The notes under the pieces are model-generated. The model saw only the letters and a list, made by a program, of their open reading frames with translations, ran no database searches and was not told the origin of the DNA. Below are positions 19,181 to 54,462 of a stretch of 64,000 nt of DNA, piece after piece. Positions within the stretch are counted from its first letter, which is position 1, and each line of letters starts with the position of its first letter. This DNA is from Methanolobus tindarius DSM 2278 (GTDB taxonomy: Archaea; Halobacteriota; Methanosarcinia; Methanosarcinales; Methanosarcinaceae), in the NCBI RefSeq assembly GCF_000504205.1, contig NZ_AZAJ01000001.1:2826879-2890878 (forward strand). The letters are read 5' to 3'. The position numbers and the translations under genes were made by a program.

Positions 19181-20101
19181 ATGAAAAACAAGCCAATAAT
19201 ACGTTGCAGTGGATGTATTTTTGTACTGCTACTCATTTTTACAACAGTAATCATTTCCAGCGGTTGTTTTGAATCTGAGGAAGCAGTGACAGTTTCTCTT
19301 AAAAATACCGAAACATTAACACAATCTGATATCAACGATAAACCTGTGCGTATCGGCGTATTCGCCATGGCGTCTCCAAAAATAACAATGGAGTATTATA
19401 ATGATTTTTTAAATTACCTGTCTGAGCAGACAAACCTTGAGTTTGAACTTGTGCAACGTGATAATCCTGCTGAGATCAACTATCTGCTTGAAACCGGTTA
19501 TCTTGATTTTGTATTTGTGAGAGAGGAAGATTATCTTTCAGGACATGATGATTTTGGTCTTGAAATTGTCGCAGTGCCTGTCATCAATGGTGATCTGTAT
19601 TGTTCATCACTGGTAATCGTAAGAGGGGATTCCGGGATAGATTCCCTTGAGAATCTCCACGGAAAAAAATTTGCATTCAATAGTTATCGTTTTAATAGGG
19701 GTGACATTGTTCCGGATTATATGCATCCTTTTATTGACGGTTCACCGGACGACTTCTTCTCCGGTTATATTTACAGCAATAGTCAGGATAATTTTATAGA
19801 TATGGTTCATCAGGGAAGCCTGGATGGTGCTGAAATTGATTGTATAATGTGGTCTTACATGGTTGAAAGTTCATCTGAAGATTACTCTGATCTTAGTATA
19901 ATTTATTCTTCTTCAGGTCAGCTTGTTCCTGTAGTTGCTGTGAATCCGGATATTGATCAGGAACTAAAGAATGATGTAGCTAAGACATTGCTTGGTATGC
20001 ATGATTCCAGAGAAGGTCGTGAGGTTCTTGAAGAAATGCATTTCAATATGTTTGTTGAAATGGACCATGAAACATATGCAGAGTACGGAAATAACTTGTG
20101 A
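19181..20101 (+). CDS. PhnD-like phosphonate/phosphite-binding lipoprotein
   Basis: A 306-residue substrate-binding lipoprotein (lipobox IISSGC). The mature domain has the PhnD family course: VRIGVFAMASPK, FVREEDYLS, LENLHGKKFAFNS and DGAEIDCIMW. No phnC/phnE permease genes follow. Instead a transmembrane histidine kinase begins eight bases downstream. A binding protein joined to a kinase suggests sensing rather than transport; the ligand may be phosphate, phosphonate or another oxyanion. This role is inference. Confidence 0.85.
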   Translation: MKNKPIIRCSGCIFVLLLIFTTVIISSGCFESEEAVTVSLKNTETLTQSDINDKPVRIGVFAMASPKITMEYYNDFLNYLSEQTNLEFELVQRDNPAEINYLLETGYLDFVFVREEDYLSGHDDFGLEIVAVPVINGDLYCSSLVIVRGDSGIDSLENLHGKKFAFNSYRFNRGDIVPDYMHPFIDGSPDDFFSGYIYSNSQDNFIDMVHQGSLDGAEIDCIMWSYMVESSSEDYSDLSIIYSSSGQLVPVVAVNPDIDQELKNDVAKTLLGMHDSREGREVLEEMHFNMFVEMDHETYAEYGNNL

Positions 20102-20109
20102 GGAGTAAA

Positions 20110-21915: not shown

Positions 21916-22030
21916 TACTAAAAAACCATTTTCATCTATATAGATTATGTATATTCTACCTATCTATTAAGGTAAGCTTTATAGCCCAAATCCTGTCCAT
22001 TAGTCATATCTTCCTTTGGGTTGTGAAAAG

Positions 22031-22993
22031 ATGGATACAAGAAAAGTACAGATCACAGGAAAATCCACATATGTGGTTACCCTCCCCAAAAAATGGGCCA
22101 CTCGCTCAAAACTGGAAGCTGGATCCCATATTTCCATTTATTATCAGGAAGATGGTTCTCTGCTTCTTAAACCTCCAGGGGTAAAATCTTCTAATAAAAC
22201 AAAAAAGATAAAATTTAACAAAGAACTTGAGCATATAAAAAGAGATCTTGTAGGTCTGTATATAATAAGTGATCACCAGACAATAGAAATTTCAGGTAAT
22301 GATATTCCGGCAGCAGCACGCAGGGAAATTAAAGACCTTTGCCATCGTCTTGTAGGTCTGGAAATGGTTGAAGGTGATGAGAAAAAAATAGTCATCAAGA
22401 ATTTTCTGGACACGGAAGATTTCACCATTGAAAAAGGGCTCAAGAGGATGTCTTCACTCGTTTATCTCATGCTTGATGAACTAGCATCTGCCTTTGAGGA
22501 AAATGACAAAGAATTGTGCAATCACATAATATCCCGTGATGATGACCTTGACAGAATGTTCCTGCTTGTATCAAAGCAACATGTAGAGCGTCTGAACCTT
22601 AAGAAACCTTCAAAACATGATAAGCAGACTCTGGTTGAATCATTTTATTACCGGCTTGCTGCCAATGACATAGAAAGAATCGGTGACCACATATCTAAAA
22701 TATCATTGCATTTCTCTTACATTAGTCTGCCTCAGGAAGTACTTGCAATACTTGTTGACCTGTGCAGGGAGTGTCAATCCCTTTTCATGGATAGTACCGA
22801 AGCTTTGCGCCAGTCAGACAGTGATATTGCAAACAATGTAATGGGGAGAGAGGACATCTTCAACAAAATGCTCATAAGTGCTGCCCAGCTCCCAACTGAG
22901 GAGTCTATAGAACTTATAATTGACAGTTTCAGCAGGATAAAGGATTATGCGTCAAATATTGCAGAGTCTGCTATCGATTTATCGCAATTATAG
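22031..22993 (+). CDS. AbrB-PhoU phosphate uptake regulator
   Basis: A 320-residue protein with an N-terminal SpoVT/AbrB-like swapped-hairpin domain (about 1-45, RKVQITGKSTYVVTLPKKWA) and two PhoU helical repeats, with ERIGDHISK in the second. Archaeal proteins with this architecture (COG0704) are thought to bind DNA or the Pst transporter and to control phosphate uptake. ATG 22031 aligns with the related gene at 35704. It ends in TAG. The following membrane protein gene overlaps its 3' end. Confidence 0.9.
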   Translation: MDTRKVQITGKSTYVVTLPKKWATRSKLEAGSHISIYYQEDGSLLLKPPGVKSSNKTKKIKFNKELEHIKRDLVGLYIISDHQTIEISGNDIPAAARREIKDLCHRLVGLEMVEGDEKKIVIKNFLDTEDFTIEKGLKRMSSLVYLMLDELASAFEENDKELCNHIISRDDDLDRMFLLVSKQHVERLNLKKPSKHDKQTLVESFYYRLAANDIERIGDHISKISLHFSYISLPQEVLAILVDLCRECQSLFMDSTEALRQSDSDIANNVMGREDIFNKMLISAAQLPTEESIELIIDSFSRIKDYASNIAESAIDLSQL

Positions 22994-23381
22994 ACTCATC
23001 CCTCTTTTTCTCTGCGTGGGTGTAATTATTGATTACTCCCTTACCTTCTATTTTGCAGGCAGCATTGAAAGGATACTGGAATATGAATTCAGCCCGACAC
23101 TGGTATTTGCAGTCAGGCACAACATCGTTCTTCCATATCTGGCTTTAACTGTTGTTTTCTATTATTTCATGGGATATACTATACTGAAGTTCCTTGAAGA
23201 TGAGGAGATCTACCCGATAGGTGTTTTTATTATCCTACTCATGAGCCTTACACATGTTCTTGGTGGTCTGTCATGGTTTGTGCTAAGTGAGACGTATTCT
23301 AATATGATTTTCATGCTTTCCATGACTTCCATAATCATTGCCATATCGGTATTCGGATATGAAATATTTAAACGGGGATGA
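22947..23381 (+). CDS. Small membrane protein
   Basis: A 144-residue protein with four predicted membrane segments. It overlaps the preceding phoU by 47 bases; the ATG has AAAGG upstream, but a GTG at 23019 is another possible start. Its layout (a first segment with IDYSLTFY and a D-x-x-x-T pattern) resembles the membrane protein at 36727, which also lies beside an AbrB-PhoU gene. A DUF5658-like family is possible. Function is unknown. Confidence 0.65.
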   Translation: MRQILQSLLSIYRNYRLIPLFLCVGVIIDYSLTFYFAGSIERILEYEFSPTLVFAVRHNIVLPYLALTVVFYYFMGYTILKFLEDEEIYPIGVFIILLMSLTHVLGGLSWFVLSETYSNMIFMLSMTSIIIAISVFGYEIFKRG

Positions 23382-23397
23382 CCTGGGAACGTGGTTC

Positions 23398-23550
23398 ATG
23401 GATAACTGGAGTTATCCCGAAGGGTCCGGTGAAGCCGGCGTTTTCCCAACAGAAAAAACAATATGTTCTGCAAACAGTTTGTACTTTTTCACAGTGTCGT
23501 CTGTAGAATTCTTGATAAGTACAATAGTTCTTGTAATAATCTTCTATTAA
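23398..23550 (+). CDS. Possible small single-span membrane protein
   Basis: A possible 50-residue protein with a soluble Gly/Pro-containing start and a C-terminal hydrophobic helix (about 27-50). It has no clear Shine-Dalgarno. The stop is followed by a strong terminator hairpin, which makes the end of a transcript here believable. Could be a chance reading frame. Confidence 0.35.
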   Translation: MDNWSYPEGSGEAGVFPTEKTICSANSLYFFTVSSVEFLISTIVLVIIFY

Positions 23551-23566
23551 GAATCATAGGAATGTG

Positions 23567-23596
23567 CCGCCTTCGGCGGATGCTTACTTTTTTTTA
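23567..23596 (+). terminator. Terminator after the phoU cluster
   Basis: A short GC stem (CCGCC, TTC loop, GGCGG) followed by a run of eight T. It separates the sensor kinase/phoU cluster from the surface-protein gene. Confidence 0.7.
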
Positions 23597-23737
23597 GCTT
23601 AATGGTTGTTTTTGTAGAAATGAAAATGGGAAATGGTTGCTTCATTTATATAGTCTATTTAGTACACAATAGTAGAAATGGTTGTATGTAATTCCTTTGT
23701 GCAAGGGATATATGATTACGTGTGTATTCTGCAAATT

Positions 23738-23920
23738 ATGAAGAGAATAGTCAGTTTGCTGGCAGCGGTGGTACTTTCCCTATATACCTTCTATTCAACA
23801 TGCTGGTACACAGCCTCCTCTTTTTTTAACATGGCTGTACCCTTTGTTTTCGTTACTCTAGCGGGATATGCACTGCTGATATACGTTCTGTCCAGAAAAG
23901 TATCCAAAAAATCACAATAA
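23738..23920 (+). CDS. Small two-span membrane protein
   Basis: A 60-residue hydrophobic protein with two membrane segments and a basic C-terminus (SRKVSKKSQ). It ends 13 bases before the start of the S-layer-like gene, suggesting joint transcription. No Shine-Dalgarno is clear for the chosen ATG, and a longer form could begin at 23678. No family recognised. Confidence 0.5.
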   Translation: MKRIVSLLAAVVLSLYTFYSTCWYTASSFFNMAVPFVFVTLAGYALLIYVLSRKVSKKSQ

Positions 23921-23933
23921 CGGAGTGGAGTTT

Positions 23934-25985
23934 GTGAGAAAAACGAAAATAAGCATACTCTGTCTGTTATGCATGGTAGTATTACTGCTGTTCTCTTCAC
24001 ATCTACCTCTTGCATCTGCAAATACAGAGTGTCCATGTGATGATCTTGATTATTGCATCGAATGGGTAGATGAAGGTAGTATCAGTGTCCAGTGGGGCCA
24101 GGTTGAAACCGTTGCTATCAATGGTGAGGTTTATACATTCAGAGCTGATGATTTTGATGAGGACTTGAATGCTGCTCTGATTTCCATTGAGCGTGATGGG
24201 ATTGTGCGCAAAGAGTTCCTTTTCCTGACTGGATCATCTGACAGAAGATGGCTTGAATGGGACAATGAAGTAGCAGTTGTTATTGCTGATATAACTCTTG
24301 ATGGCTATAAGACTCCATCTGTAAAACTGGAATTGTATTCTCGTGGCCGTCCTTCACTTGAAATTGAATTTGAAGCAAGTGAAGAGACAGTTCAGGGTGT
24401 TGATGTTTCTTCTGAACAGTATGCTCCTGGAGAAGAAAAGCAGATTGATGTTACTATAAAAAACACAGGGGATGCATGGATCGAGAATGTTATTCTTGAG
24501 ATCGATACTGATGAGATGAGGGTACGTTCAAGAGGAGATTTTGAATACAGGGATGGTATCCTAAAGGAAAATCTGGGTTGCCTTGCAGTAGATGATAGTA
24601 TTGAGATGAATTTTACAGTTGTGGCTCCTGAGTGGGATGGTGTAACTTCTCCTTATGATCTGGTTTATTACATTAATGCTACTGCAAATGGGTATGATAT
24701 AAAAGAAAACGATTATCAATTCACTGGTTCTCTGGAGCTTGGTTGCACAGATCCTGATATTGAGGTTGTAATGGAATTAACTACAGATGAATTCAATATG
24801 ACTTCTTGGTATGTGAATAACCTTGATATAAATACTGCCAGCTATAGTTCAAGTGATTATGAAATAAGGGATGCAGAAGAATTTACATTTTTAAGGACGC
24901 GTATTTTTAATACAGGTCTTTACACTCTAAGCAATATTGATGTTGATTTTCCAGAAATATCTGAAGATCTGGTTATAGCTGAAAGCTATGAATCGGGGGA
25001 TTATTCCACAATGGAAGATAATGGTCAATACTATCTGGGTCTAAAACTTGTGGCTATTAAATCCGGTGACTATTCATTTGATGAAGTAGTTGTACAAACA
25101 AGTTTCTTCGGTGAAAATCTTTCGTGGAAATCCGGATCAGAAAGTCTGAAAGTGCATGGTCCGCATATTGTGCTTGATAAAAAGCTAACAAGATCCGATT
25201 CTGACTACACTGTTTCTCTTGATATTTCCAATGATGGCGACCGTGCAGCCTGGATCAATCTGGTTGATACTATTCCTGATGAATTGGATTATGTAAGCGG
25301 AAGTTTGGAAAAGAGTCTGGAAGGAAGTGATCTGCCTCTTAGTGAGTGGGATCTCAGTACAACGGTGGTTAATGGTACGCAAACAGTTTCTGTAACAGGG
25401 GTATTGCTCCCTCCTGGTTCATCACTTTCCATGTCTTACGAGTTCTCTTCTGATGAAATACCGGATCTGCCTGCAGCTATTTGCAAATTCAAATCGATAT
25501 GGAATTATGAAGGTGAAGCCCAGTCTTCTTATTATGTAGGTGGTGTTGAGGTTAAACAGTACTGGAAACCTCTGAATGGTGGATGGGTAACTGAAGCTGA
25601 TATTACCGAAAATAGTACTGTTGCAGTGCCCATAACTGTTGTTGAAGATGAGCCAGAAATTGTGAATCTTCCTGAAGATGATGCAGAGGATGAATTTAAT
25701 TCAGTTGATGATGAAATGCCTGATACTTCTGATGTTGTACTGGAAGTAGAAACTGAATCTTCAACTTCATTCTTATCAAAAATTATCTCTCCTATCATCA
25801 ATATATTTGACAAAGCACAGCAATTAGTAAGCAATATTTTTAAAGGTGCTCTTAGTGGAGTATCTTCTGTTTTTGGTATTGCTGAAGGAGCTGCTGTAGA
25901 TGCTGTTGAAAACTATCTCTATGCAGTTGTTATAGGTATAGCACTTGTCGTATTCCTTCTGGTATACACTTTAATTTCAAAATAA
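23934..25985 (+). CDS. Large surface protein with CARDB/DUF11-like repeats and C-terminal anchor
   Basis: A 683-residue protein with a signal peptide (about 1-30), a Cys-containing segment (CPCDDLDYC), then a beta-rich exterior. It has NEW3/CARDB-like (VDVTIKNTGDAWIENVILEI) and DUF11-like (SLDISNDGDRAAWINLVDTIP) Ig-type domains. An acidic linker (about 560-610) and a C-terminal membrane helix (about 660-682) follow. This is the COG1361 S-layer-like pattern. GTG 23934 follows CGGAG. It lies just before the pilin-type pstS operon and may be a surface platform or phosphate-related adhesin; that role is inference. Confidence 0.75.
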   Translation: MRKTKISILCLLCMVVLLLFSSHLPLASANTECPCDDLDYCIEWVDEGSISVQWGQVETVAINGEVYTFRADDFDEDLNAALISIERDGIVRKEFLFLTGSSDRRWLEWDNEVAVVIADITLDGYKTPSVKLELYSRGRPSLEIEFEASEETVQGVDVSSEQYAPGEEKQIDVTIKNTGDAWIENVILEIDTDEMRVRSRGDFEYRDGILKENLGCLAVDDSIEMNFTVVAPEWDGVTSPYDLVYYINATANGYDIKENDYQFTGSLELGCTDPDIEVVMELTTDEFNMTSWYVNNLDINTASYSSSDYEIRDAEEFTFLRTRIFNTGLYTLSNIDVDFPEISEDLVIAESYESGDYSTMEDNGQYYLGLKLVAIKSGDYSFDEVVVQTSFFGENLSWKSGSESLKVHGPHIVLDKKLTRSDSDYTVSLDISNDGDRAAWINLVDTIPDELDYVSGSLEKSLEGSDLPLSEWDLSTTVVNGTQTVSVTGVLLPPGSSLSMSYEFSSDEIPDLPAAICKFKSIWNYEGEAQSSYYVGGVEVKQYWKPLNGGWVTEADITENSTVAVPITVVEDEPEIVNLPEDDAEDEFNSVDDEMPDTSDVVLEVETESSTSFLSKIISPIINIFDKAQQLVSNIFKGALSGVSSVFGIAEGAAVDAVENYLYAVVIGIALVVFLLVYTLISK

Positions 25986-26326
25986 TCCTATTTTCTTCTT
26001 TTCTGCAAATATTTTATTTATTCAATATACATCTACCTTTTTTTGTATGCTTCTTGATTAATTGAATTATCAAAAAATATGATGGCTCTTGGTCATTTTT
26101 ATAAATGCATTCTTTCTTAATAATAGAATATAGTTCTCTATGTTGCATTTATATGGAATTATTTGTTGTATATGCACCAATATATAGAGATATTGGAATT
26201 CTATATGGTTTATTGTACTATATACATTCCTTGTACAAGCATTATATATCCGCATACCAATTAGGTGCCAGAGCGATTAAAACCCGCTCTGAATAGGAAC
26301 ATAAAATAAATTGGTGTACGATAAAT
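25986..26326 (+). promoter_or_regulatory. Promoter and structured leader of pstS, with operator-like palindrome
   Basis: This 341-base region has no gene. A perfect palindrome CTTGTACAAG (26230-26239) abuts a TATA box (ATTATATATCC, 26241-26251), the position of an archaeal operator. Downstream in the predicted leader, CAGAGCG (26269-26275) pairs with CGCTCTG (26285-26291), and ACCAATT (about 26256-26262) could pair with AATTGGT (about 26309-26315) around it. No Shine-Dalgarno precedes the pstS ATG. Control by phosphate is an inference from the gene served. Confidence 0.5.
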
Positions 26327-27304
26327 ATGTTTAAGAAAATTTTCAACGATGAAGCTGGTGTTTCACCTATCGTTGCTACCCTCGTTTTAGTAGTAGTAGC
26401 AATCGCAGGCGCAGCAGCTGTAGGAACCATCATGGGTTCATTCTCAAGTGACGTATCTGACGAAGCAAGTGCAGCTGACGCAACCTCAGCAGCATCAACC
26501 GAACTCCTTATCGCAGGTTCAACAACCGTTCAGCCAGTTTCTGAACTTCTTGCAGAAGCATACATGGATGAGCACAACGGTATCAAGGTAACAGTACAGG
26601 GTGGTGGCTCTGGTGCAGGTATTACCTCAACAGAACTCGACATCATTGACATCGGATCAGCATCCAAACCAGTAGATACAACCACAGATCACCCTGATCT
26701 TCAGGTTCACCAGATTGGTGGTAGTGCTGTAGTAGTAATCGCAAACGGTGCACTTGAAGGGTACAACACAACACAGGCTGAGCTCTTTGCAATCTACTCC
26801 AACTGTACAGATGGTAAGTCATACTATGCAATATCTGGTAGCAACTTCACCTCAGCAACATCCGGTTCACAGGTAACAGTATACCAGAGATCCGAGGCAA
26901 GCGGAACAGAAGAAACATTCGCAAAGTACCTTGATGGTGCATTCGGTGATGCAAAGGATGTAGATGATTCCGAGGCACTCGGTGCAGTAGGTAACGCTGG
27001 TGTACTTGCAGCTGTCGAAGACACAACAAACTCAATCGGTTTCGTAGACTTTGGATTCGCAGTCAGCTCCGAATCTGTAACAATCGTTGGTGTAGACGGA
27101 TACAACGATGTAACTGAAGACAACGTACTCGACTGCCTTGCAGGTAAGGATACCTATCAGGAAGATCTTACAAGACCACTCAACTACCTCACAAATGGTA
27201 ACCCATCAACAGTTGAGCAGTCCTTCATCAACTTTGCAATGTCTCCAGTTGCAACACAGTATTTCGAAGATGTAGGATACTTCTCAATCATTGACTTCAG
27301 CTAA
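26327..27304 (+). CDS. pstS: Phosphate-binding protein PstS with type IV pilin signal
   Basis: A 325-residue PstS whose N-terminus is an archaeal type IV pilin signal instead of a lipoprotein signal. It has charged residues (FKKIFNDEA), a likely prepilin-peptidase cut before GVSPIVATL, and the pilin hydrophobic stretch to about residue 37. A short Ala/Ser linker follows, then the phosphate-binding domain from about residue 58 (LIAGSTTVQPVSE, GGGSGAGI, RSEASGTEE). Codon bias (GCA, GTA, GGT, AAC) suggests high expression. A hairpin separates it from pstC. I infer assembly or retention at the surface as pilin-like subunits, by the ATPase and TadC proteins encoded downstream. Confidence 0.93.
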   Translation: MFKKIFNDEAGVSPIVATLVLVVVAIAGAAAVGTIMGSFSSDVSDEASAADATSAASTELLIAGSTTVQPVSELLAEAYMDEHNGIKVTVQGGGSGAGITSTELDIIDIGSASKPVDTTTDHPDLQVHQIGGSAVVVIANGALEGYNTTQAELFAIYSNCTDGKSYYAISGSNFTSATSGSQVTVYQRSEASGTEETFAKYLDGAFGDAKDVDDSEALGAVGNAGVLAAVEDTTNSIGFVDFGFAVSSESVTIVGVDGYNDVTEDNVLDCLAGKDTYQEDLTRPLNYLTNGNPSTVEQSFINFAMSPVATQYFEDVGYFSIIDFS

Positions 27305-27314
27305 GTTTGAACTG

Positions 27315-27351
27315 AGATTTGTGCAATAGCACAAATCTAATCTTCTTTTTT
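27315..27351 (+). terminator. Hairpin/attenuator between pstS and pstC
   Basis: A perfect 10-bp stem (AGATTTGTGC / GCACAAATCT) with AATA loop is followed by TAATCTTCTTTTTTT. It lies between the highly codon-biased pstS and pstC, so it may end most transcripts after pstS and let only part continue into the permease and pilus genes. Confidence 0.7.
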
Positions 27352-27362
27352 TATTTAAAACG

Positions 27363-28379
27363 ATGAGCATGAATAACAGAAGCCGACTTTTACATACTAT
27401 TAATCTTATTATTTTATCCTCTGCTATATTTACAACATTTTTTGGTTCCGGTACCCAAGAAGCGAACAAAAGAGTACTATACAACAGCTCTGCAAATCTG
27501 ATATTTTTTGCATGTGCAATTATTGTATCACTTATTGTGATTTTTTTTGTAGGGTTCATATTCTACACTGCCTTCCCGGTGTTCCAGAGTCAGGGAATAA
27601 TTAATTTCCTCATTACTGATGAATGGAACTATGGTAGGAATACCTATGGCATCAAAACATACATTATGGGCACCCTTATAATGACCATTGTAACTCTGAT
27701 AATGGCAGTACCTATAAGTATTTTTACAGCAATATTTCTGTCTGAGATTGCATCTCTCCGCCTTGCTTCCTCAATAAGACCTTTCATCGAATTACTTGTA
27801 GGCATACCATCTGTGGTCTACGGTATATTTGGTCTTTTCGTGCTTGAAAATATTTTTCAGAATTATATAGAACCAATCCTTTCTTCGGTTCTGGGTTTCA
27901 TTCCGATATTTGTTGATGTGAACCCCCAGTCGGGACTGGGTGTGTTGCTGGCATCAACAGTTCTGTCAATAATGGTCTTCCCAACAATTACAACAATTTC
28001 TGAGAATGCCATACGTTCTGTATCTGTAGAGAACAGGCATGCTTCATTATCTTTGGGTGCCAACAGGTGGGAGACTATAAGTAAGGTAGTCCTTCCAGCA
28101 GCCTCCAGTGGAATAATGACTGCAGTGGTACTTGGAATGATGAGGGCAATGGGTGAAACAATGGCTATAGTGATGTTGCTGGGCAATGCAAATACCATTC
28201 CTTCTTCAGTAATGGGTCCCGGTTATGCAATGACATCGAAGATCCTCAATGATATTGGTCATCACTTCAATGAACCAGGACCACGGGCTGCATTGTTTGG
28301 AATTGCAGCAGTCCTTTTTGCAATTGAAATCGGTTTTGTTCTTGTCTCAAGATATCTGGGTGGTAGAAATGAACTATAG
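27363..28379 (+). CDS. pstC: Phosphate ABC transporter permease PstC
   Basis: A 338-residue inner-membrane permease subunit. The ABC permease (EAA-loop) region reads SLGANRWETISKVVLPAASSGI, and GIPSVVYGIFGLFVLENIF is the PstC motif. The N-terminal about 40 residues are unusual: an extra hydrophobic stretch (INLIILSSAIFTTFFG) before the usual first segment. The start could be further in. It ends in TAG, which overlaps the pstA start. Confidence 0.93.
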   Translation: MSMNNRSRLLHTINLIILSSAIFTTFFGSGTQEANKRVLYNSSANLIFFACAIIVSLIVIFFVGFIFYTAFPVFQSQGIINFLITDEWNYGRNTYGIKTYIMGTLIMTIVTLIMAVPISIFTAIFLSEIASLRLASSIRPFIELLVGIPSVVYGIFGLFVLENIFQNYIEPILSSVLGFIPIFVDVNPQSGLGVLLASTVLSIMVFPTITTISENAIRSVSVENRHASLSLGANRWETISKVVLPAASSGIMTAVVLGMMRAMGETMAIVMLLGNANTIPSSVMGPGYAMTSKILNDIGHHFNEPGPRAALFGIAAVLFAIEIGFVLVSRYLGGRNEL

Positions 28380-29262
28380 AAAAACAAAAGAGAAATTTTA
28401 TATATTTCTGTGCTATTTCTCGGCAGTTCTGGCAACAATGGCCCTTTTCGGGATACTTGGAAAGATTGCCTTTGAAGCTCTTCCAAGTCTGAATCTGGAA
28501 TTTTTACTTACTCCTGAAAATGAAGCTAAAGGGTTTGGAGGCGGAATAGCAAATGCAATAGTGGGAACAATTCTGCTTTCATTGCTATCTACAATAATGG
28601 CTTCTCCCATTGCAGTAGGAACTGCACTATATATGAAGCGCTATGCCAAGAATAAGCATCTAATAAATAATTTTAGTTTCATTATCGATGTACTTTCTGG
28701 AACTCCTTCAATTGTTCTTGGAATATTTGGATTGATGATCTTTGTTTATCATATGCGCTTCATTACCGGTGGTTTTTCACTAATTTCCGGTGCAATTGCC
28801 CTTACGATTCTGATTCTACCCGTAATTGAGCGCTCAGCAGAAGAGGCTATTAAATCTGTTCCGGCAGAATTGGAGGAAGCAAGCTATGCACTGGGAGCTA
28901 CAAAATGGGAAACAATAAGCAAAATAACCCTTCCAAATGCAGCTACAGGTATTGTCACAGGTATAGTTCTCAGTGTGGGAAGAGCTGCTGAAGAATCTGC
29001 AGTTGTGGTTTTGACTGCCGGTTATTCTCAGTTTATGCCCGAGTTTGGTGTATCTGCAAAAGAGAGTATGCTTTTTGGAATACGTATATCTCCATTACAG
29101 AATTTGGTAGCTTCACTTCCAATTACAGTGTACCATTCATTTGAATTCCCAAGTATGGTATCTCCATCAGAGGGTTTTGCAGCTGCATTTGTGCTAATAG
29201 TCATTGTTATGCTAATAAATGCCATTACCCGTCTTATCGTCTGGAGGCGCAGAATTGGCTAA
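28369..29262 (+). CDS. pstA: Phosphate ABC transporter permease PstA
   Basis: A 297-residue permease subunit with the EAA loop YALGATKWETISKITLPNAATG, plus the SGTPSIVLGIFGL segment. ATG 28369 overlaps the last codons of pstC (translational coupling); an in-frame extension to 28249 lies wholly inside pstC and has no family match. It overlaps the secretion ATPase gene by 8 bases. No pstB ATPase follows, so the permease must use an ATPase from elsewhere, or work differently. Confidence 0.93.
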   Translation: MNYRKTKEKFYIFLCYFSAVLATMALFGILGKIAFEALPSLNLEFLLTPENEAKGFGGGIANAIVGTILLSLLSTIMASPIAVGTALYMKRYAKNKHLINNFSFIIDVLSGTPSIVLGIFGLMIFVYHMRFITGGFSLISGAIALTILILPVIERSAEEAIKSVPAELEEASYALGATKWETISKITLPNAATGIVTGIVLSVGRAAEESAVVVLTAGYSQFMPEFGVSAKESMLFGIRISPLQNLVASLPITVYHSFEFPSMVSPSEGFAAAFVLIVIVMLINAITRLIVWRRRIG

Positions 29263-31429
29263 ACTTCAACTGCGCTCTAGATTCACCAAAAAAAAGTCAT
29301 CTGAGGCAGTTGAAACAGCAGATGACAGGGCATCAGTCTCTGATGCTGGATACGTGTCAGACTTGCCAGTTGAAACAATTGAATCCGCAGAAGAGGATGA
29401 TTTTTCCGGCAATGGTCACATAAGCGAAGAGGAAATAATTTCAGTCTCAGACGAACCTGAAATCATAGATAATCAGGAAATATCTGAGGATTTTTCCCTA
29501 AATACTGAAGACGATATTAATGATGTTTCTTTGAAACCAGAACCTGATATTATTGTTGAGGAATCAGAAGTCTCAGATCCGGATGAAAAAACAGAAAAAA
29601 AGAAAAAGTTTGGTTTTAAGATTGGTAAAAAGGAAAAGAAGCCAAAGAAATCTTCCAAAAAAAGTGATTCAGTAGCTTCAATAGAAGAGCCTGAAGTACA
29701 AAGCTCAAAACCTGTAAAAAAGAAATCAAAATTCAATCTAGATCTGAACCTGAATTTCGGTAAAAAAAAGAAAAACCTTCCAGAAACCGAAAATAACGAT
29801 GATGTCGCATCTGGAGAAATACAGGGACAAGAGTTAACTGAAGAATCTGCTGTTTCATCACTTGTTAAAAAGATAGAGCAGATAATATCTCCAAAACCGG
29901 AAATTATCGAAGAGATGGAGTTCATCGTTGGTGAAATCACAATTCCTGCACCGGGAGTTCCACAAAAGGAAGTAAACATCACATATGAGGTTACTTCCGG
30001 GTTCCAGTATGTTCATATTGAATTTACCGGGGAGTCTCTTCAGTATCAGTGCCTTGAACCTCCGCTCAGTGAATCTGAAAAAGAGGCAATGTTCATTGTG
30101 CAGAATGCTTTTGATAAAATGGCACACTCTGAGATTCTTCTCGTTGAGGAAGAAGATCGTGTCGAGGCTCTCAGGGATAGGTTTGATCTTATAGTTGACA
30201 TCTACCGTCTGAAACTTACCGAAACCCAGAAAGACAAATTCTTCTATTACCTTCACAAAAAATACATGGGCTTTGACAGGATGGACCTTTTGATGAAAGA
30301 TCCATATATTGAAGATATTACCTGTAACGGTCCCTTTACTCCACTTTATGTCAACCACAGGGTTTACGGTTCTGTTGCAACGGATGTAATCTATGAAGAA
30401 ATCGAACTCAACAATTTTGTCATGAGAATGGCACAGGCAGCAGGCAGGCATATTTCCGTGCTGGAGCCTATCAGGGATGCAACACTTGTGGATGGGAGTC
30501 GTGCAAATCTGACACTTGGAAAAGAGGTCACAAAAAGAGGTTCCACATTCACCATCAGGCGTTTCAGATCCAATCCGGTTTCATGCATTGATCTGATGAA
30601 TTACAAGACCTATGATTCTACAGTTCTCGCTTATTTCTGGCTCATGGTGGAATACAAACGTTCCGTACTTGCAGCCGGAGGAACAGCTTCAGGAAAGACA
30701 ACTACCCTGAACGCTCTTGGTGCTTTCATTCCACCGGAATATAAGATTGTATCCATTGAAGATACTGCGGAAATGAACCTCATGCATCCAAACTGGACTC
30801 AGTCTATCACAAGAGCAGGTTTTGGAGGCAGTAGTGAAGGTGGTAAATCCGCGGGAGATATCGAACTTTTCGACCTGCTTAAAGCTGCTTTGAGACAAAG
30901 ACCAGAATACATAGTGGTTGGTGAGGTTCGTGGTGCTGAAGCCGGTACACTTTTCCAGGCAATTTCCGTTGGTCACCCATGTATGGGGACGATACACGCA
31001 GGTTCCATTCAGGAACTGCTATCAAGGGTTGAATCCGAACCAATGAACGTGCCAAGGAACCTTTTTGCCAGTGTTGATATGGTAATTTTCAACTCCATGA
31101 TCAAAGTTGGTGAACATTTCCTCAGACGTGCTCTGAGAATTGTAGAAATAGTGGAACTTGATCCTGAACGTGGCGACCTCATCACAAATCCTGTATTTAA
31201 ATGGAATCCCATCACGGATGAGTATGAGTACAGTGGCAGCAGTGCAATGTTTGATGACATCAATGATGAATTTGGTATCGATCAGTATGAACTGGTAAGG
31301 GAAATGGATCTCAGGGCAAGATATCTGGAAGGGCTTGCACGTGATGGAATTACTGATTATGAGGATGTGGCCAGAGCCATCAGAAGGTATTCACGAGAAA
31401 AAGATGAATTGCTGGAGATGACTCACTAA
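29255..31429 (+). CDS. Type IV pilus/secretion ATPase (GspE/VirB11-like)
   Basis: A 724-residue assembly ATPase. The first about 210 residues are low-complexity: acidic, then lysine-rich blocks (KKKKFGFKIGKKEKK and similar). The core has Walker A GGTASGKTT (about 474-482), Walker B/Asp box in EYIVVGEVRGAEAG and the His box GTIHAGS (about 577). It should power pilin assembly from the cytoplasm with a TadC-type platform. TTG 29255 follows GGAGG (29243-29247) and overlaps pstA. Its place right after pstA is unusual, and the organised spacing argues for one operon. Confidence 0.93.
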   Translation: MAKLQLRSRFTKKKSSEAVETADDRASVSDAGYVSDLPVETIESAEEDDFSGNGHISEEEIISVSDEPEIIDNQEISEDFSLNTEDDINDVSLKPEPDIIVEESEVSDPDEKTEKKKKFGFKIGKKEKKPKKSSKKSDSVASIEEPEVQSSKPVKKKSKFNLDLNLNFGKKKKNLPETENNDDVASGEIQGQELTEESAVSSLVKKIEQIISPKPEIIEEMEFIVGEITIPAPGVPQKEVNITYEVTSGFQYVHIEFTGESLQYQCLEPPLSESEKEAMFIVQNAFDKMAHSEILLVEEEDRVEALRDRFDLIVDIYRLKLTETQKDKFFYYLHKKYMGFDRMDLLMKDPYIEDITCNGPFTPLYVNHRVYGSVATDVIYEEIELNNFVMRMAQAAGRHISVLEPIRDATLVDGSRANLTLGKEVTKRGSTFTIRRFRSNPVSCIDLMNYKTYDSTVLAYFWLMVEYKRSVLAAGGTASGKTTTLNALGAFIPPEYKIVSIEDTAEMNLMHPNWTQSITRAGFGGSSEGGKSAGDIELFDLLKAALRQRPEYIVVGEVRGAEAGTLFQAISVGHPCMGTIHAGSIQELLSRVESEPMNVPRNLFASVDMVIFNSMIKVGEHFLRRALRIVEIVELDPERGDLITNPVFKWNPITDEYEYSGSSAMFDDINDEFGIDQYELVREMDLRARYLEGLARDGITDYEDVARAIRRYSREKDELLEMTH

Positions 31430-32347
31430 ATGGTCAAGACCCAGGATGTCGATGTCCATCAGGCTTTCAATGATGGAAGTACTAACAAGTATATTGAAAA
31501 ATATAAGATGTTCTGTTATGTCTTTGGTAAACACATAGACAAAAAACCACAGGATGACATCGCTAAGTCACTCTATCAGGCAGACATGGTGCTTACTCCG
31601 GGGATGTTCATGTCTCTGGCATTGGTTACCGCAGGTCTGGCTTCAGGAATAGTGTTTTTATTATCAGTTTTACTTTTTACAAAATCATCATCTCCACTTG
31701 TCTACATATCTGTACTTACCTTCCTGACATTCGGACTAACCGTAAGCGGTTTTCCGTTCATGTTATACAACAAAGTTTCCAACAAGAACATGAATATTGA
31801 GCAGGAACTGCCTTTCACTCTCGGGTACATGACCATTCTTGCAAGTTCGGGTTCTTCACCTATGGATGTTATCAGGAAAGTTGCAATCGAGGACTATGGT
31901 GACGTTTCAGTTGAATTTGGTAAAGTAATGTATCGTGTGGATGTTCTTGGTGAAGATGGTGTAAGTGCCATGAATCACCTCATACGCAACACATCATCTG
32001 AATCCCTAAGGGCAATATGCATTGATCTTGCCAATGCCATGCAGTCCGGTGGTGGCCTTCGAACTTATCTTGAAATGAAATCCAGGGAACTCATGGACAT
32101 GAGGAGAAAAATGCAGCAGGAGTTCGTGGATTCTCTTGGAGTTTACGGTGAAGGTTATCTGAGTGGAGTAGTTATGAGTGTTGTACTTGTAGTCCTGATG
32201 ATCGTGGTTACAAGTGCTCTTGGAATTGATCTTGGTCCATTTACGGCCAAACAGATGTTCCAGTTCTTCGTTTACTTCATGTTACCTTTCATAAACATCG
32301 TTTTCCTGATTTTATTATGGATGAAATATTCAAGGAGCACTCTATGA
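31430..32347 (+). CDS. TadC-like pilus assembly membrane protein (first)
   Basis: A 305-residue GspF/TadC (T2SSF) platform protein with membrane segments near 60-105 and at the C-terminus (about 240-300). The cytoplasmic core (LPFTLGYMTILASSGSSPMDVIRKVA) matches the family. It begins right at the ATPase stop codon and overlaps the next platform gene, so the three are translationally coupled. Confidence 0.9.
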   Translation: MVKTQDVDVHQAFNDGSTNKYIEKYKMFCYVFGKHIDKKPQDDIAKSLYQADMVLTPGMFMSLALVTAGLASGIVFLLSVLLFTKSSSPLVYISVLTFLTFGLTVSGFPFMLYNKVSNKNMNIEQELPFTLGYMTILASSGSSPMDVIRKVAIEDYGDVSVEFGKVMYRVDVLGEDGVSAMNHLIRNTSSESLRAICIDLANAMQSGGGLRTYLEMKSRELMDMRRKMQQEFVDSLGVYGEGYLSGVVMSVVLVVLMIVVTSALGIDLGPFTAKQMFQFFVYFMLPFINIVFLILLWMKYSRSTL

Positions 32348-33708
32348 ATATTGAAAAATATCGTCTGACAGCAGAGCGTTATCATCAAATGCTGACTATA
32401 CGTTATGATATCAAGCGTGAATATCTCACATTAGGTATCCCTGTCTTTATTGCATTAATGATCGTGGTCATGGCTTTAATTACCGGTCATTCCTTTGTAA
32501 CTGATGAAGCTGCAGCTGGCGGTGCAGCAGTTAGTGACGAAGCTGCTGCTAAACAAGCTGCATATGAGCAACTTGTAGCTGAAATGGAGGCTGCAGAAGC
32601 TGCAGAAAGAGGTGAGGTTGTAGCCACCGAAGAGGAAGAGGTAGAACCAGAAACTGAAGAGGATAAACCAAAAGATGATTTGGATCATATTATGGTGTTT
32701 GCAATACTTGTGGCTATTATTCCATATTCTATAGATTCATTCATAGAAAAAAGAAATCTTCAAAAAAGAGAAGTCGCTTTCAGTGAGTTTCTGTATAAAC
32801 TATCCGAACTGATGCGTGGCGGTATAGATCCTGTCAAGGGTTTTATCAATCTCTCCAAGACTAATCTTGGAGCAATCAGCACTCATGCACAGGATGCTGC
32901 ATCTTCAATGGTGCTTGGAAAATCCTTTGAGGAATCTATGCACAGAATGTCAGATTCAATGAAAAGCCGTCTTGTTTCCAGATATATTGACGTCGTCGTT
33001 CAGGCTGCTTATACTGGTGGTAATGTGGCTGACCTGTTATTCCGGACCTCAGAGGACATGAGATCAGTGATTGCTATCCAGCGAGAAAAGGAAGCAAATT
33101 TGAAGCAGTATATTGTAATTTTCTACCTTGCTCAGGGTATTATCGTAATGTTGACATATATTCTCTCAACATCCCTGTTACCTCTTATTCAGGGTGTTGG
33201 AATGGAAATGCTTGGTGGTGCAGGTCTTTCGGATATTGACTTTGAGCGTGGTTTTTTCCATATGATTATACTTAATGCTCTCTTTGGTGGACTTATAGTC
33301 GGACAGATTACAGAAGGTGAGATCAAGCATGGATTCAAACATTCAGCTATATTGATAGCCTTGAGCTATGTTGCATGTGTTACATTGCTTCTTCCGGCAG
33401 GTGTGGGTAGCACATACATGGTTACTGTAGTTTCAGGCGATGCACAGGAAGTTATGGGTGGTATTCCCTTACAGCAGCCAATTATATTCAATATAACTGA
33501 TGTAGATGGAAATCCTGCTGCAGGTACGTTTGTCAAAATGACAATAACACCCACTGGAGTGATCACAAGTTCTATGACTGAGGATGACGGAACAGTAACT
33601 GTGTCCCCGGTTCCGGGTTCAACTGCAGGTACGTATGTTGTAACTGCAACAGCTGGTGAATCTCAAGGTACAGCAACAATAATTGTGAATGAAGGAGGAG
33701 GGGATTAA
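32344..33708 (+). CDS. TadC-like pilus assembly membrane protein (second) with C-terminal Ig-like domain
   Basis: A 454-residue T2SSF platform protein. Two odd parts: an Ala/Glu-rich loop (about 52-115) inserted after the first membrane segment, and a C-terminal Ig/carboxypeptidase-like beta domain (about 374-452, with QQPIIFNITDVDGNPAAGT and STAGTYVVTATAGES). The latter is normally found in surface proteins and should sit outside the cell. The T2SSF core SELMRGGIDPVKGFINLS is intact. ATG 32344 has AGGAG at 32333-32337. Confidence 0.9.
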   Translation: MNIEKYRLTAERYHQMLTIRYDIKREYLTLGIPVFIALMIVVMALITGHSFVTDEAAAGGAAVSDEAAAKQAAYEQLVAEMEAAEAAERGEVVATEEEEVEPETEEDKPKDDLDHIMVFAILVAIIPYSIDSFIEKRNLQKREVAFSEFLYKLSELMRGGIDPVKGFINLSKTNLGAISTHAQDAASSMVLGKSFEESMHRMSDSMKSRLVSRYIDVVVQAAYTGGNVADLLFRTSEDMRSVIAIQREKEANLKQYIVIFYLAQGIIVMLTYILSTSLLPLIQGVGMEMLGGAGLSDIDFERGFFHMIILNALFGGLIVGQITEGEIKHGFKHSAILIALSYVACVTLLLPAGVGSTYMVTVVSGDAQEVMGGIPLQQPIIFNITDVDGNPAAGTFVKMTITPTGVITSSMTEDDGTVTVSPVPGSTAGTYVVTATAGESQGTATIIVNEGGGD

Positions 33709-33737
33709 TCTCCTTTTTTTAAAAAAGAATATAAGTT

Positions 33738-34415
33738 TTAACCAACTCTTTCTCTCATATCCATGGTGATTCCCTGGCTGGTTACATTATATGCAATCAT
33801 TTTATTCAGGGGAATGCTGCCTTTCATTTTTGGAATGTTGATGTATCTGTTGATTTTGCCAGCTATATATTCGGTTCTGAACTGGATGACACCGTCGACC
33901 ATGGAGCGGATTATCTTCTCGGCTCTTTCCGGAAGTATGCCCATGTCGGCTGAAAGCAGGAATGTGATGTTTTCTTTTCGGCTGATGCTGATTAATGCTT
34001 CAATGGTTTCGGATATGACTTCTGTATCTTCATGAACAAACAGTGCGGCGAACATATCAATGATGCACACGTCGGCTTCACTTATGTTATGCAACAGTGA
34101 CCCGTTATTCTCCCCGTGGAGCCTGCTGTAAAGCCTGTGACGCTTATAACACATATCCAGAAGGGCAATATGGTCTGAAAAGTTGCCTATGGCTGTTAGG
34201 AGCTCAGGTTTTGTAATAGAATCAAACTTGTTCATTTCTTCTTTCAGGTCATTTTCTGAGTTTCTGGTAGATATATAGAATACCTTTTTTCCGCTTCTTA
34301 GAGCATCAGAAGTAATCTTTCGGAAAAAGACACTTTTTACATCTCCTATGTCTTCTTCTACCAATAGTACCACATTGGAAGGTACGTTTTTTAAACCAAA
34401 GCTAGTCAGCACCAT
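33738..34415 (-). CDS. ArlH/KaiC-like ATPase with degenerate Walker A
   Basis: About 225 residues. The course NVVLLVEEDIGDVKSVFF...ALRSGKKVFYISTRNSENDLKEEM parallels ArlH (FlaH)/KaiC proteins, but the P-loop lacks the usual glycines, keeping only G-D-V-K-S. Walker B is visible as ADVCIIDMFAALF. It may bind nucleotide weakly or be a regulator of pilus assembly. ATG at 34415 follows AGGG; a longer form starts at 34436. It is divergent from the pilin gene at 34541 and beside the platform genes. Confidence 0.7.
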   Translation of the reverse strand: MVLTSFGLKNVPSNVVLLVEEDIGDVKSVFFRKITSDALRSGKKVFYISTRNSENDLKEEMNKFDSITKPELLTAIGNFSDHIALLDMCYKRHRLYSRLHGENNGSLLHNISEADVCIIDMFAALFVHEDTEVISETIEALISISRKENITFLLSADMGILPERAEKIIRSMVDGVIQFRTEYIAGKINRYINIPKMKGSIPLNKMIAYNVTSQGITMDMRERVG

Positions 34416-34540
34416 CAAAACCCTAAAAGTAATCATTGCTTAAATGGTTTTGGAAGAAAATGCCAAAAACTATAGACTATAGGGTTCTATATATATTACA
34501 GAAACAAAGTATATAATCGGTAATACACTTCTCATCACAG

Positions 34541-35680
34541 ATGGCTGGCAACGATATGAAAGCGTTTTTTAACGACAACCGCGGTGTTACTGTTGTATTT
34601 GGCACTCTGTTATTGATATTGATCACTATTATCGCTGCTTCAAGTGTTGCCTACATGATATCCACTACCCAGAAGCAGGCTATGGATCTTGAAAGCCATC
34701 AGAATTCAGTTGAGAACGAAAACCTCAAAATAGTTTCCATTGATCCACAGGGTAACGGTTCTAAATGGGAATCGATTGATCTGAAAATACTCAATCTCAA
34801 TATTGAGGATTCCTACATATCGGCAATCCGCATCAATGACGGATATTTCCTTTATTTCCGGGCTTATGATGATTATTCATCTGAAAATTTTGATACTTAT
34901 AATGGATATCCGGCGGTTTACAATGCAAATCACAGATTGAAAATACCTGCAACTAAAAGTAAAACCGTTCATCTTAATTTTTCAGACATAGATGTTCAGG
35001 GAATTGAAACAATTGATACTGCAGCATGGACTAATAATAGCATAGATTTTACATATTCTCTTAAAAAACATCCATGGGATGCATTTGGAGAATATCCATT
35101 CACTTATAATCTGACCTATGAAAACGGAACAAATTGTATCGAAAATGGCAACATTACATTGAGCAATGAGACTCGTCAGATAACATTTCTGGGAAATAAT
35201 TCAGGTGGAACTCTAATTAACACATCAAATTATAATCTCGAATATTCATTGAATTTCATATCGTATCCGGGCTCATCACCTTCTAAAGAGGATCCGGTTA
35301 GGGTCGAAATTATCACTTCATACATTAATGTTTTCAGGGAAGTTTTCTCTCCGCCAATGCCGGTGGCAGCAGTACAATTCAAAGTTGAGTATCTGCAAAA
35401 TGGAAATGGAACCCAGAGTCCCAATAGCTACCTTATATTGGATGCTTCCGATTCCACAGATATTGACGGTTTCATCACCAGCTATAAATGGGCCATCTGG
35501 AAGGATTCAGGTAATGGGACAACAACTCTCTATGATTATGACCTTCAGGGAATGGTTGTAAGGCCTACTGGAATTGACCCATATAACGATCATAACGTAA
35601 CCATCGATCTACTGATAACAGACGATGACGGCATGACCTCCAGACTAAGTCAGGTATCTGGTAACCTGACAATTCTTTAA
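34541..35680 (+). CDS. Pilin-type surface protein with PKD-like domain
   Basis: A 379-residue protein. The N-terminus has FFNDNRGVTVVFGTLLLIL, a type III (pilin) signal with a likely cut before GVTV, then a hydrophobic helix. The middle is beta-rich with many NxS/T sites. The C-terminus (about 268-379) is PKD-like (LDASDSTDIDGFITSYKW, then LLITDDDGMTSRLS). It is probably a large pilin or tip subunit of the same pilus system. ATG at 34541 or 34556. It is followed 23 bases later by an AbrB-PhoU gene. Confidence 0.8.
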   Translation: MAGNDMKAFFNDNRGVTVVFGTLLLILITIIAASSVAYMISTTQKQAMDLESHQNSVENENLKIVSIDPQGNGSKWESIDLKILNLNIEDSYISAIRINDGYFLYFRAYDDYSSENFDTYNGYPAVYNANHRLKIPATKSKTVHLNFSDIDVQGIETIDTAAWTNNSIDFTYSLKKHPWDAFGEYPFTYNLTYENGTNCIENGNITLSNETRQITFLGNNSGGTLINTSNYNLEYSLNFISYPGSSPSKEDPVRVEIITSYINVFREVFSPPMPVAAVQFKVEYLQNGNGTQSPNSYLILDASDSTDIDGFITSYKWAIWKDSGNGTTTLYDYDLQGMVVRPTGIDPYNDHNVTIDLLITDDDGMTSRLSQVSGNLTIL

Positions 35681-35703
35681 AATCATATAAAGGAAGGATT
35701 CAC

Positions 35704-36759
35704 ATAGCAGACAAAAGAAAGATCCAGTTAACAGGTGGCTCTACTTATATTGTTTCTCTTCCCATTGAGTGGGTAAGGGAAGGTGGGCTTACTGCAGGCG
35801 ATACAGTGCTTCTCACCGTAAGACCTGACAGGTCACTGCTTATAAACTCTGATCAGAGTAAAATGAAAAAGAATGTCCGCTCAAAGGTGGATATGACTGC
35901 ATCTGAGGATCAGGAAGAGAATTTCAGGTTACTAGTTGCTAACTATCTTGTAGGTTATGACATTATCAGGATACTTTCTCCAGGTGGATTTTCTGCTGCT
36001 GAACGCAAGTATCTGAAAGAATCTGCACGCAGACGTCTTATTGGTATTGAAATTGTAGAGGAAACCAGAACAGAGATAATACTCCAGAACCTGCTGAATT
36101 TCCAGGATATTTCCCTTGAAAAGTCTCTTCAGAGCATGTTCCGCATTATTTATTCCATGATGGAGGACTCCGTTGTGGCATTAAAGGAAGCGGATATGGA
36201 ACTTGCAAAAGACATTATTCAGAGGGATAATGATGTTGATAAGTTCTATCTTTTAAGTGTCAGGCAGATAAAAGCGGCACTTGATGATTCAACACTTGCA
36301 GGTAAGATTGGTATTAAGGATTCCAAGGACTGTCTGGGTTACCGTCTTATCATTAAACTCATGGAACGCATCGGTGATCATGTGCAGGGAATTTCCCATA
36401 GTGTTATCCAGATGGACGGTGAAAAAGGGATTCATGATGAGATTATAGAAATGGGTCTGCTTTCCCAGAAATTGTTCCAGGACTCTTTTAATGCGGTAAT
36501 GAGCATTGACACTGACCTTGCAAATCATGTTATGAGAACTTCCAAGATGTCAATTGCTCTTGGAAACAAGATTATACAAAAGTCTGAGCACAGTGAAAAA
36601 GCATATTGTCTTTCAGGTGAGCGCCAGAGAAAAATAATAGAGAGTTTCCAGCGTATATCAGAATATAGTGCTGATATAGCTGAAATGGTTATCAATATGA
36701 AAGCTACCCATATTAAGCAGGCCGTATCAGAAAAGGCCCAGGCACTCGAACAGGCTTGA
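35704..36759 (+). CDS. AbrB-PhoU phosphate uptake regulator, ATA start
   Basis: About 351 residues: AbrB-like hairpin (about 1-45, KIQLTGGSTYIVSLPIEWV), then PhoU repeats with MERIGDHVQG. It is paralogous to the protein at 22031. The only canonical start in frame is a GTG at 35806, which would delete nearly the whole AbrB domain. ATA at 35704 is six bases after GGAAGG (35692-35697), encodes a full N-terminus that aligns with the paralogue, and has no ATG/GTG/TTG alternative before the stop of the previous gene. I conclude the start is ATA. Confidence 0.9.
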   Translation: MADKRKIQLTGGSTYIVSLPIEWVREGGLTAGDTVLLTVRPDRSLLINSDQSKMKKNVRSKVDMTASEDQEENFRLLVANYLVGYDIIRILSPGGFSAAERKYLKESARRRLIGIEIVEETRTEIILQNLLNFQDISLEKSLQSMFRIIYSMMEDSVVALKEADMELAKDIIQRDNDVDKFYLLSVRQIKAALDDSTLAGKIGIKDSKDCLGYRLIIKLMERIGDHVQGISHSVIQMDGEKGIHDEIIEMGLLSQKLFQDSFNAVMSIDTDLANHVMRTSKMSIALGNKIIQKSEHSEKAYCLSGERQRKIIESFQRISEYSADIAEMVINMKATHIKQAVSEKAQALEQA

Positions 36760-37131
36760 TCTTACTGTAATTACCATTAGGTTATTGACCACGAGTACAA
36801 GTCCGAAAATGCTTACTCCTGTTCTTGACAGGTTCCATAATTTTCTGGCATAAGAATGAACTGATGCTTTTATAGAACAATAGTTCCAGTAAACTACTGC
36901 CAGTATCAGCATTTTTACAACCAGCAAAGACCATAGTCCGTGGCTTGCCATAATTCCTGAAAGAATCCCGTTTTCTTCAAATCCGTATCCATTGCTAAGC
37001 GCATGGAATGTTGTCAGAAAATCCCCTATTATGTAAAGCAGGATAATGTACCTGGCTTCGTATAAGAATTCATATATCGCTTCTGTGTTGAACAATCCTT
37101 TACTGTGTGAGTTGATATTATTAGGAAGCAT
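36727..37131 (-). CDS. Small membrane protein
   Basis: A 134-residue protein with about three to four membrane segments (IILLYIIGDFLTTFHALS, LLVVKMLILAVVYW, GVSIFGLVLVVNNLM). The D-x-x-T-T-x-x-A pattern suggests a DUF5658-like family. It overlaps the 3' end of the phoU gene by 33 bases on the other strand. Function is unknown; a similar small membrane protein lies beside the other AbrB-PhoU gene. Confidence 0.65.
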   Translation of the reverse strand: MLPNNINSHSKGLFNTEAIYEFLYEARYIILLYIIGDFLTTFHALSNGYGFEENGILSGIMASHGLWSLLVVKMLILAVVYWNYCSIKASVHSYARKLWNLSRTGVSIFGLVLVVNNLMVITVRSSLFECLGLF

Positions 37132-51845: not shown

Positions 51846-51922
51846 GGGCCCGTGGTCTAGCCGGTTATGACATCGCCTTTACACGGCGGGGGTCATGAGT
51901 TCGAATCTCATCGGGCCCACCA
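51846..51922 (+). tRNA. tRNA-Val(UAC)
   Basis: Acceptor stem GGGCCCG (51846-51852) pairs with CGGGCCC (51912-51918), followed by A and an encoded CCA. The anticodon loop is TTTACAC, giving anticodon TAC. The T arm has GAGTTCGAATCTC. Its 3' part, from the anticodon loop on, is the att core of an integrated element, but the tRNA gene remains intact because the element supplies the same 45 bases. Confidence 0.95.
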
Positions 51923-52188: not shown

Positions 52189-52201
52189 AGTGTACACTAT
52201 G
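52186..52201. promoter_or_regulatory. Operator-like palindrome at the integrase start
   Basis: CATAGTGTACACTATG is a perfect 16-base palindrome covering the intN start codon. It could be an autoregulatory binding site, perhaps for the AbrB-like N-terminus of the integrase itself. Confidence 0.5.
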
Positions 52202-54233: not shown

Positions 54234-54462
54234 ATTTAACGATAAACTTGCAACAATATAATTTTATTTGCTAACGTTACTGTATTAAGTAAAATAATTC
54301 GTAAAATAGTATATATGTAATATCAAGTTTTTTACATATGTAGGAACGTAATCCTAAAAACTAGAACCTGTATTCTTAAAGAGTGGTATTTTTAGATGTT
54401 ACCTATTATCCCTAAAATTCTTTGCAACTGGTATAATCTGAACACTAGTAATTAGTAAGTCA

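Follow-up and report, generated by a model that had tools for sequence, protein, structure and literature searches.

A pilin-type PstS and its linked type IV pilus motor in Methanolobus: a candidate bindosome-like system for phosphate capture

Introduction

Do pilus machines serve archaea to build structures that catch nutrients? This long-standing question becomes testable with a gene cassette of the methanogen Methanolobus tindarius DSM 2278, in which a phosphate-binding protein with a pilin-type N-terminus (hereafter pilin-PstS) is encoded together with the permease proteins PstC and PstA, a type IV pilus-type assembly ATPase and two TadC-like platform proteins, TadC1 and TadC2. The window analyzed here is a stretch of 64,000 nucleotides (contig NZ_AZAJ01000001.1, positions 2,826,879 to 2,890,878), and positions below are counted from its first letter. 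A preliminary description had listed the gene order pstS-pstC-pstA-ATPase-tadC-tadC on one strand, and a check of open reading frames (ORFs) and domains found all six genes in place, on the + strand (26327-33708). The functional unit is wider and extends over approximately 22016-37131 (22.0-37.1 kb). We consider it fairly probable that it encodes a bindosome-like system: PstS, anchored by its pilin helix, would be assembled by a type IV pilus motor of its own, next to a PstC-PstA pair that borrows PstB. If this is true, phosphate acquisition in methanogens gains an unsuspected layer.

The Pilin Helix of PstS

The body of pilin-PstS is recognized by phosphate-binding protein profiles, with a PBP_like_2 match (PF12849, 1.6e-20) above cut-off; NCBIfam ptsS_2 (TIGR02136) is matched by 26/26 members of the pilin-PstS family, although below its equivalog-type cut-off. 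At the N-terminus, the pilin signal lies under the Pfam threshold (PF07790, E = 0.0098, 17.2 bits versus 25.2). The PF07790 search that had been proposed for finding further members misses most of them, with 3/26 recovered at E ≤ 0.01.

Four independent tests agree on this signal. The NCBIfam archaellin/pilin N-terminal model, TIGR02537, matches 9/26 members (best 2.1e-5). With the family profile, residues 1-49 align to 8fj5, an archaeal pilin of solved structure (7.2e-5), and residues ~57-330 to many PstS structures. Profile-profile comparison with the other pilins of the genome gave a probability of 97.1%, as against 3.4% for the control, made of ordinary PstS leaders. Finally, among 19 orthologues, mean identity reaches 99.2% in residues 12-35 of the pilin helix but 49.8% in the PstS body. 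The ordinary PstS, compared in four genomes, has 29.5% identity in the N-terminus and 77.7% in the body, whereas the corresponding values for pilin-PstS are 95.2% and 53.4%. This inverse conservation rules out an ordinary signal peptide. At the codon level, 39% of the fourfold sites of the helix differ while the protein is 96.7% identical, so that selection acts on the protein, and recent gene exchange alone does not account for the identity. Judged from these sequences, the pilin helix on PstS is real, as the preliminary description had proposed, and it is under strong purifying selection.

The AlphaFold model of pilin-PstS comprises a helix (residues 14-34), a disordered linker to about residue 55 and a confident PstS fold, the top PDB fold matches of which are all phosphate-binding proteins. 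The nearest named relative with the same gene is M. profundi (88% identity). A second, diverged pilin-PstS (39-43% identity) was also encountered (L099 7433-8509, L101 15856-16944, L102 6684-7808, L104 4759-5868 and L106 7784-8911). Its binding motif has SGP or SGS in place of SGT, and a PhoU gene adjoins it in most cases; it possibly binds another ligand.

Linkage, Co-Occurrence and Loss of the Cassette

Co-occurrence was analyzed in a sample of 393 genomes across the phylum. Full-length pilin-PstS is present in 25/393 genomes and the TadC1 orthologue in 25/25 of these (Fisher p ~1e-35, uncorrected for shared ancestry), which bears out the expected association of ATPase/TadC genes with pilin-PstS. 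PstS matches in G027, G363 (second copy), G190, G206 and similar genomes were rejected as not of the pilin type and are uncounted: they align only from residues 12-60 on and lie beside sensor kinases. Four genomes have TadC1 without full-length pilin-PstS (G144, G018, G192 and G157). A contig end cuts PstS in G144, and the contig of G018 stops after PstC. In G192, TadC1 comes with a different pilin-type protein instead, and a different ATP-binding cassette (ABC) transporter is nearby. The G192 region (L204 1-18000) contains a related ATPase-TadC pair; beside it lie this ABC transporter, whose SBP_bac_11 binding protein carries PGF-CTERM, and the pilin-type protein, of 401 residues. This ATPase-TadC pair possibly serves another cargo.

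Many Methanolobus genomes share the order PhoU1, membrane protein, CARDB protein, pilin-PstS, PstC, PstA, ATPase, TadC1, TadC2, KaiC-like protein, PKD-type pilin and PhoU2. Beyond Methanolobus, pilin-PstS, PstC, PstA and the ATPase are found together in other genera of the family and in four further families (f10, f11, f16 and f27), with an altered gene order in some lineages. In three Methanolobus relatives (G002, G004 and G006), aroC directly adjoins the aminotransferase gene that flanks the block in the window, so that the entire block is lacking as one piece; a truncated PhoU1 remains in a fourth (G013). A chance adjacency of unrelated pst and pilus operons was also considered; it is ruled out by the cross-family linkage with rearranged order together with the loss of the whole block. 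Gene content thus points to a dedicated linkage, gained or lost as a unit. A prepilin peptidase (A24) is encoded in the Methanolobus genome, and another one inside the G070 cluster. A plasmid search returned remote ordinary PstS only.

Two local variants may be mentioned. In G026 (L105 14085-19901), genes for the polyphosphate kinases PPK1 and PPK2 and for a CYTH/Ppx-like protein adjoin the cassette. In G076 (L098 16607-17896), a single ORF begins as PstC and continues as the PKD-type pilin, the result of either a deletion or an assembly chimera.

The Permease Pair and PstB

The cassette lacks pstB. A single gene of the genome scores above the cut-off of the PstB family, and it belongs to an ordinary operon elsewhere, pstS-pstC-pstA-pstB-phoU-phoU. 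In 17/17 cassette genomes tested, pstB likewise lies elsewhere and never within the cassette run. In two more distant genomes (G405 and G076), pstB-phoU is located a few kb from cassette parts, outside the pstSCA-ATPase run. The preliminary description had named as an objection to its own proposal the presence, in close relatives, of an operon that includes an ordinary-signal PstS and pstB; such an operon was looked for and not found.

The cassette PstC and PstA both retain EAA loops, which are the docking site of ABC ATPases. PstC also retains the RxxGET motif, while PstA has RAAEES in place of RVAGET. Their identity to the ordinary copies of the same genome is 34% for PstC and 43% for PstA, versus 50-61% to other cassettes. 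Family f16 has a cassette PstA with a C-terminal extension of ~200-650 residues (L146 6676-8199, L151 11783-14515 and L152 11193-14039); L146 and L151 were scanned, and neither extension has a Pfam match.

The Hairpin and the Possible Exchange of PstS-PstC-PstA

The overlapping gene ends described earlier hold from pstC onward, where the ends overlap or abut. They do not hold between pilin-PstS and pstC, which are 58 bp apart, and pstA does not overlap the ATPase gene in all genomes, relatives having gaps of 114 to ~215 bp. A strong hairpin followed by a T-tract lies in the 58-bp spacer, and nearly all of 23 cassettes have a similar element there, although its stem sequence differs; it is a probable partial terminator or mRNA stabilizer. 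The hairpin suggests that more PstS is made than permease and motor, which would fit a structural or bulk surface role. Such an excess is also common for binding proteins.

Identity varies along the cassette. In G022, PstS, PstC and PstA have 47, 52 and 57% identity, versus 97% for TadC1 and 93% for PhoU1. The situation is reversed in G017, with 88, 86 and 93% for PstS, PstC and PstA, versus 63% for the CARDB protein and 76% for PhoU1. The PstS-PstC-PstA segment (26327-29262) appears as an identity trough relative to its flanks, and as a peak in G017 (compared: L024, L025, L099, L107, L108 and L110-L112). From these identity profiles, PstS-PstC-PstA seems to move between strains as one sub-module, while the motor stays fixed and the pilin helix is retained.

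Proposed Mechanism and Alternatives

In the bindosome-like system that we favor, PstS would carry a class III (pilin) leader and be cut by the A24 prepilin peptidase of the genome. The ATPase and the two TadC proteins would pack its helix, so that an oligomer or short filament forms in the envelope, with the PKD-type pilin probably taking part. Many phosphate-binding domains would thereby be held at the surface beside PstC-PstA, most likely energized by the single PstB of the ordinary pst operon. PhoU1, PhoU2 and the KaiC/ArlH-like protein would couple assembly or expression to phosphate status. A bolder and less likely version is that the PstS-pilins polymerize into a true surface filament, a phosphate-harvesting pilus, with PstS-PstC-PstA swapped between strains on a conserved motor and the helix kept. 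The preliminary description had proposed a PstS-containing pilin structure concentrating phosphate beside its transporter. Its core, PstS as dedicated cargo of the ATPase and TadC proteins, is strongly supported at the genomic level by helix conservation, linkage, co-occurrence and unit loss; the proposal as a whole is partly supported.

Several points weigh against the favored scheme. The co-occurrence statistics ignore shared ancestry, and no pilin-PstS reaches the Pfam pilin cut-off among the 26 family members scanned. TadC1 and TadC2 are present in G157, where pilin-PstS was not found. The permease is not always adjacent, as G070 and G370 have pilin-PstS, ATPase and TadC with no pstCA beside them. 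The sharing of PstB in trans with the cassette PstCA is a guess. In the structural model, the disordered linker between helix and PstS domain is unlike classical pilins, so that tight filament packing is no more than a possibility. As to the ligand, phosphate is suggested by family membership and by the conserved R...SGT motif.

The alternative that survives best, although we regard it as unlikely, is a phosphate-responsive adhesion pilus made mostly of the PKD-type pilin. Pilin-PstS would be its minor or tip subunit, and PstS-PstCA-PhoU mainly a sensor switching the pilus on at phosphate shortage. The block does include two PhoU genes and a further pilin gene, whose product has Ig/PKD-like domains; G070 and G370 retain pilin-PstS and the motor without pstCA; and in some genomes the block also contains genes for a histidine kinase and a PhnD-like protein. 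Most cassettes, however, have both PstC and PstA, in which the EAA loops are conserved, as is RxxGET in PstC, which suggests transport, and the excess of PstS suggested by the hairpin is unlike a minor subunit.

More doubtful still is a scheme in which the helix merely tethers PstS, the ATPase and TadC proteins being a separate pilus system under common phosphate regulation. Archaeal binding proteins are often membrane-anchored and a pilin helix could serve this purpose; the gap before the ATPase gene in relatives may also reflect separate transcription. A plain anchor, though, could do without a 99% identity that extends over the VSP cleavage context, and the other PstS of the same genomes have variable anchors. 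Moreover, the linkage between PstS and motor survives rearranged order across families, and both are gained or lost together. Lastly, direct driving of PstCA by the secretion ATPase as a substitute for PstB, which the missing pstB and the overlap of the ATPase gene with pstA could evoke, is highly improbable, given a FlaI/GspE-type motor with two TadC partners, the retained docking loops and a true pstB elsewhere in every cassette genome tested.

Components of the Gene Block

The features of the block are listed in Table 1. The ORF list starts pstA at 28249, and the later ATG at 28369, used in relatives, was adopted; the ATPase starts at 29255 (TTG) or 29219. The solved relatives of the ATPase include 2oap (5.9e-113) and FlaI 4ii7 (5e-82). 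The second pilin-like protein, or PKD-type pilin, has a predicted helix of 46 residues (13-58), and its fold search gave low-confidence Ig/adhesin-like matches only. Its gene is missing in relatives without the cassette, and it is a candidate structural pilin. The CARDB/DUF11-like protein is likewise a candidate envelope scaffold, and the KaiC/ArlH-like protein a candidate regulator of the motor.

Table 1. Features of the pilin-PstS gene block and supporting evidence (window positions).
Feature	Position	Strand	Evidence and remarks
PhoU1	22016..22993	+	AbrB/MazE-type DNA-binding domain PF04014 7.3e-10, PhoU PF01895 3.3e-24; first gene of conserved block
Small membrane protein, conserved partner of PhoU1	22947..23381	+	Gene order in relatives; nothing significant in Pfam
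Secreted CARDB/DUF11-like protein, C-terminal transmembrane helix	23925..25985	+	Weak DUF11/CARDB matches; 5' of pilin-PstS in most Methanolobus cassettes
Pilin-PstS	26327..27304	+	Predicted class III-type leader and pilin helix ~1-43, linker, phosphate-binding domain ~61-325
Hairpin then T-tract, between pilin-PstS and pstC	27315..27338	+	Folding z-score -3.35
PstC permease	27363..28379	+	PF00528 2.7e-15; EAA loop, RAMGET motif
PstA permease	28369..29262	+	PF00528 2e-20; EAA loop conserved
Type IV pilus/archaellum-type assembly ATPase	29255..31429	+	PF00437 5.5e-32; variable charged N-terminal extension
TadC1, TadC-like platform protein 1	31430..32347	+	PF00482 1.7e-11
TadC2, TadC-like platform protein 2	32344..33708 (alternative start 32317)	+	PF00482 2.9e-15; C-terminal Ig-like Big_1 PF02369 2.8e-5
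KaiC/ArlH-like protein	33738..34436	-	PF06745 9.6e-13; stays in block
Second pilin-like protein, 379 residues	34541..35680	+	Pilin helix and Ig/PKD-like domains; PF07790 2.5e-4, just under cut-off
PhoU2	35806..36759	+	PF01895 4.9e-19
Small membrane protein DUF5658, final block gene	36727..37131	-	PF18902 1.1e-5; gene order

The Ig-like Big_1 end of TadC2 is unusual in a platform protein, yet it is kept in relatives. Upstream of the block, a solitary ordinary PstS beside aroC (18098-19015) and a PhnD-like phosphonate-binding protein with a histidine kinase (19181-21915) are each found in only some relatives. Further along the window (51846-60000), a tRNA-Val is followed by low-GC DNA (33-34%) with an integrase-like ORF (54463-55425), which may be an integrated element.

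Comparison with Known Systems

The cassette resembles the Pst transporter (PstSCAB-PhoU) by its PstS fold and profiles, by PstC and PstA with EAA loops and by nearby PhoU. It differs from it by the lack of pstB in the cassette operon and by a pilin helix replacing the lipoprotein or Sec leader of PstS. It also has the parts of an archaeal type IV pilus, namely a pilin, an assembly ATPase and a TadC platform, with a prepilin peptidase in the genome. For Euryarchaeota, the 2016 census of Makarova et al. describes VirB11/FlaI-type ATPases accompanied by a single TadC gene or a pair of them, by pilins and by KaiC-like ATPases, and its main text mentions neither phosphate nor ABC transporters (PMC4858521). 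In Pseudomonas aeruginosa, PstS is reported on extracellular appendages at low phosphate (PMC7922408; cited in PMC3762822). The passages on these appendages mention neither a pilin helix on PstS nor a dedicated motor (PMC7922408, PMC3762822), and this route, in another domain of life, is probably mechanistically unrelated.

Thirty-three substrate-binding proteins with class III leaders have been reported in 22 archaeal genomes; operons resembling those of type IV pili encode many class III proteins, and a wide distribution of bindosomes has been suggested (PMC2910488, PMC4187195). The existence of euryarchaeal binding proteins with pilin leaders has also led reviews to suspect a wider bindosome (PMC4187195), while the Bas system itself is reported from Sulfolobus only (PMC2910488, PMC4187195). 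No work joining PstS with a class III leader or a bindosome was found in the open-access literature (older subscription papers, including class III protein lists, lay outside the search), in line with the earlier statement that no described phosphate system of this kind was known.

The closest parallel is the bindosome (Bas system) of Saccharolobus (Sulfolobus) solfataricus, in which binding proteins with pilin-type leaders are served by a dedicated type IV pilus-like ATPase and platform, BasE and BasF, and which is needed for uptake of the bound substrate (PMC4187195, PMC2910488). This parallel, already drawn in the preliminary description, holds for the architecture: the cassette has a predicted class III leader, a BasE-like ATPase and a BasF-like platform, encoded by two T2SSF-domain genes. 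It does not extend to the small pilins, since the block has no BasABC-like trio and only one further pilin-like gene, nor to the cargo, which is PstS in 26/26 members and not a sugar-binding protein. Other differences are the two platform proteins, the PhoU and KaiC-like genes and the euryarchaeal host. The cassette would therefore be, without being a proven bindosome, a known kind of system with a new phosphate cargo, in which cargo, permease and assembly motor are brought together in one gene run in several archaeal families.

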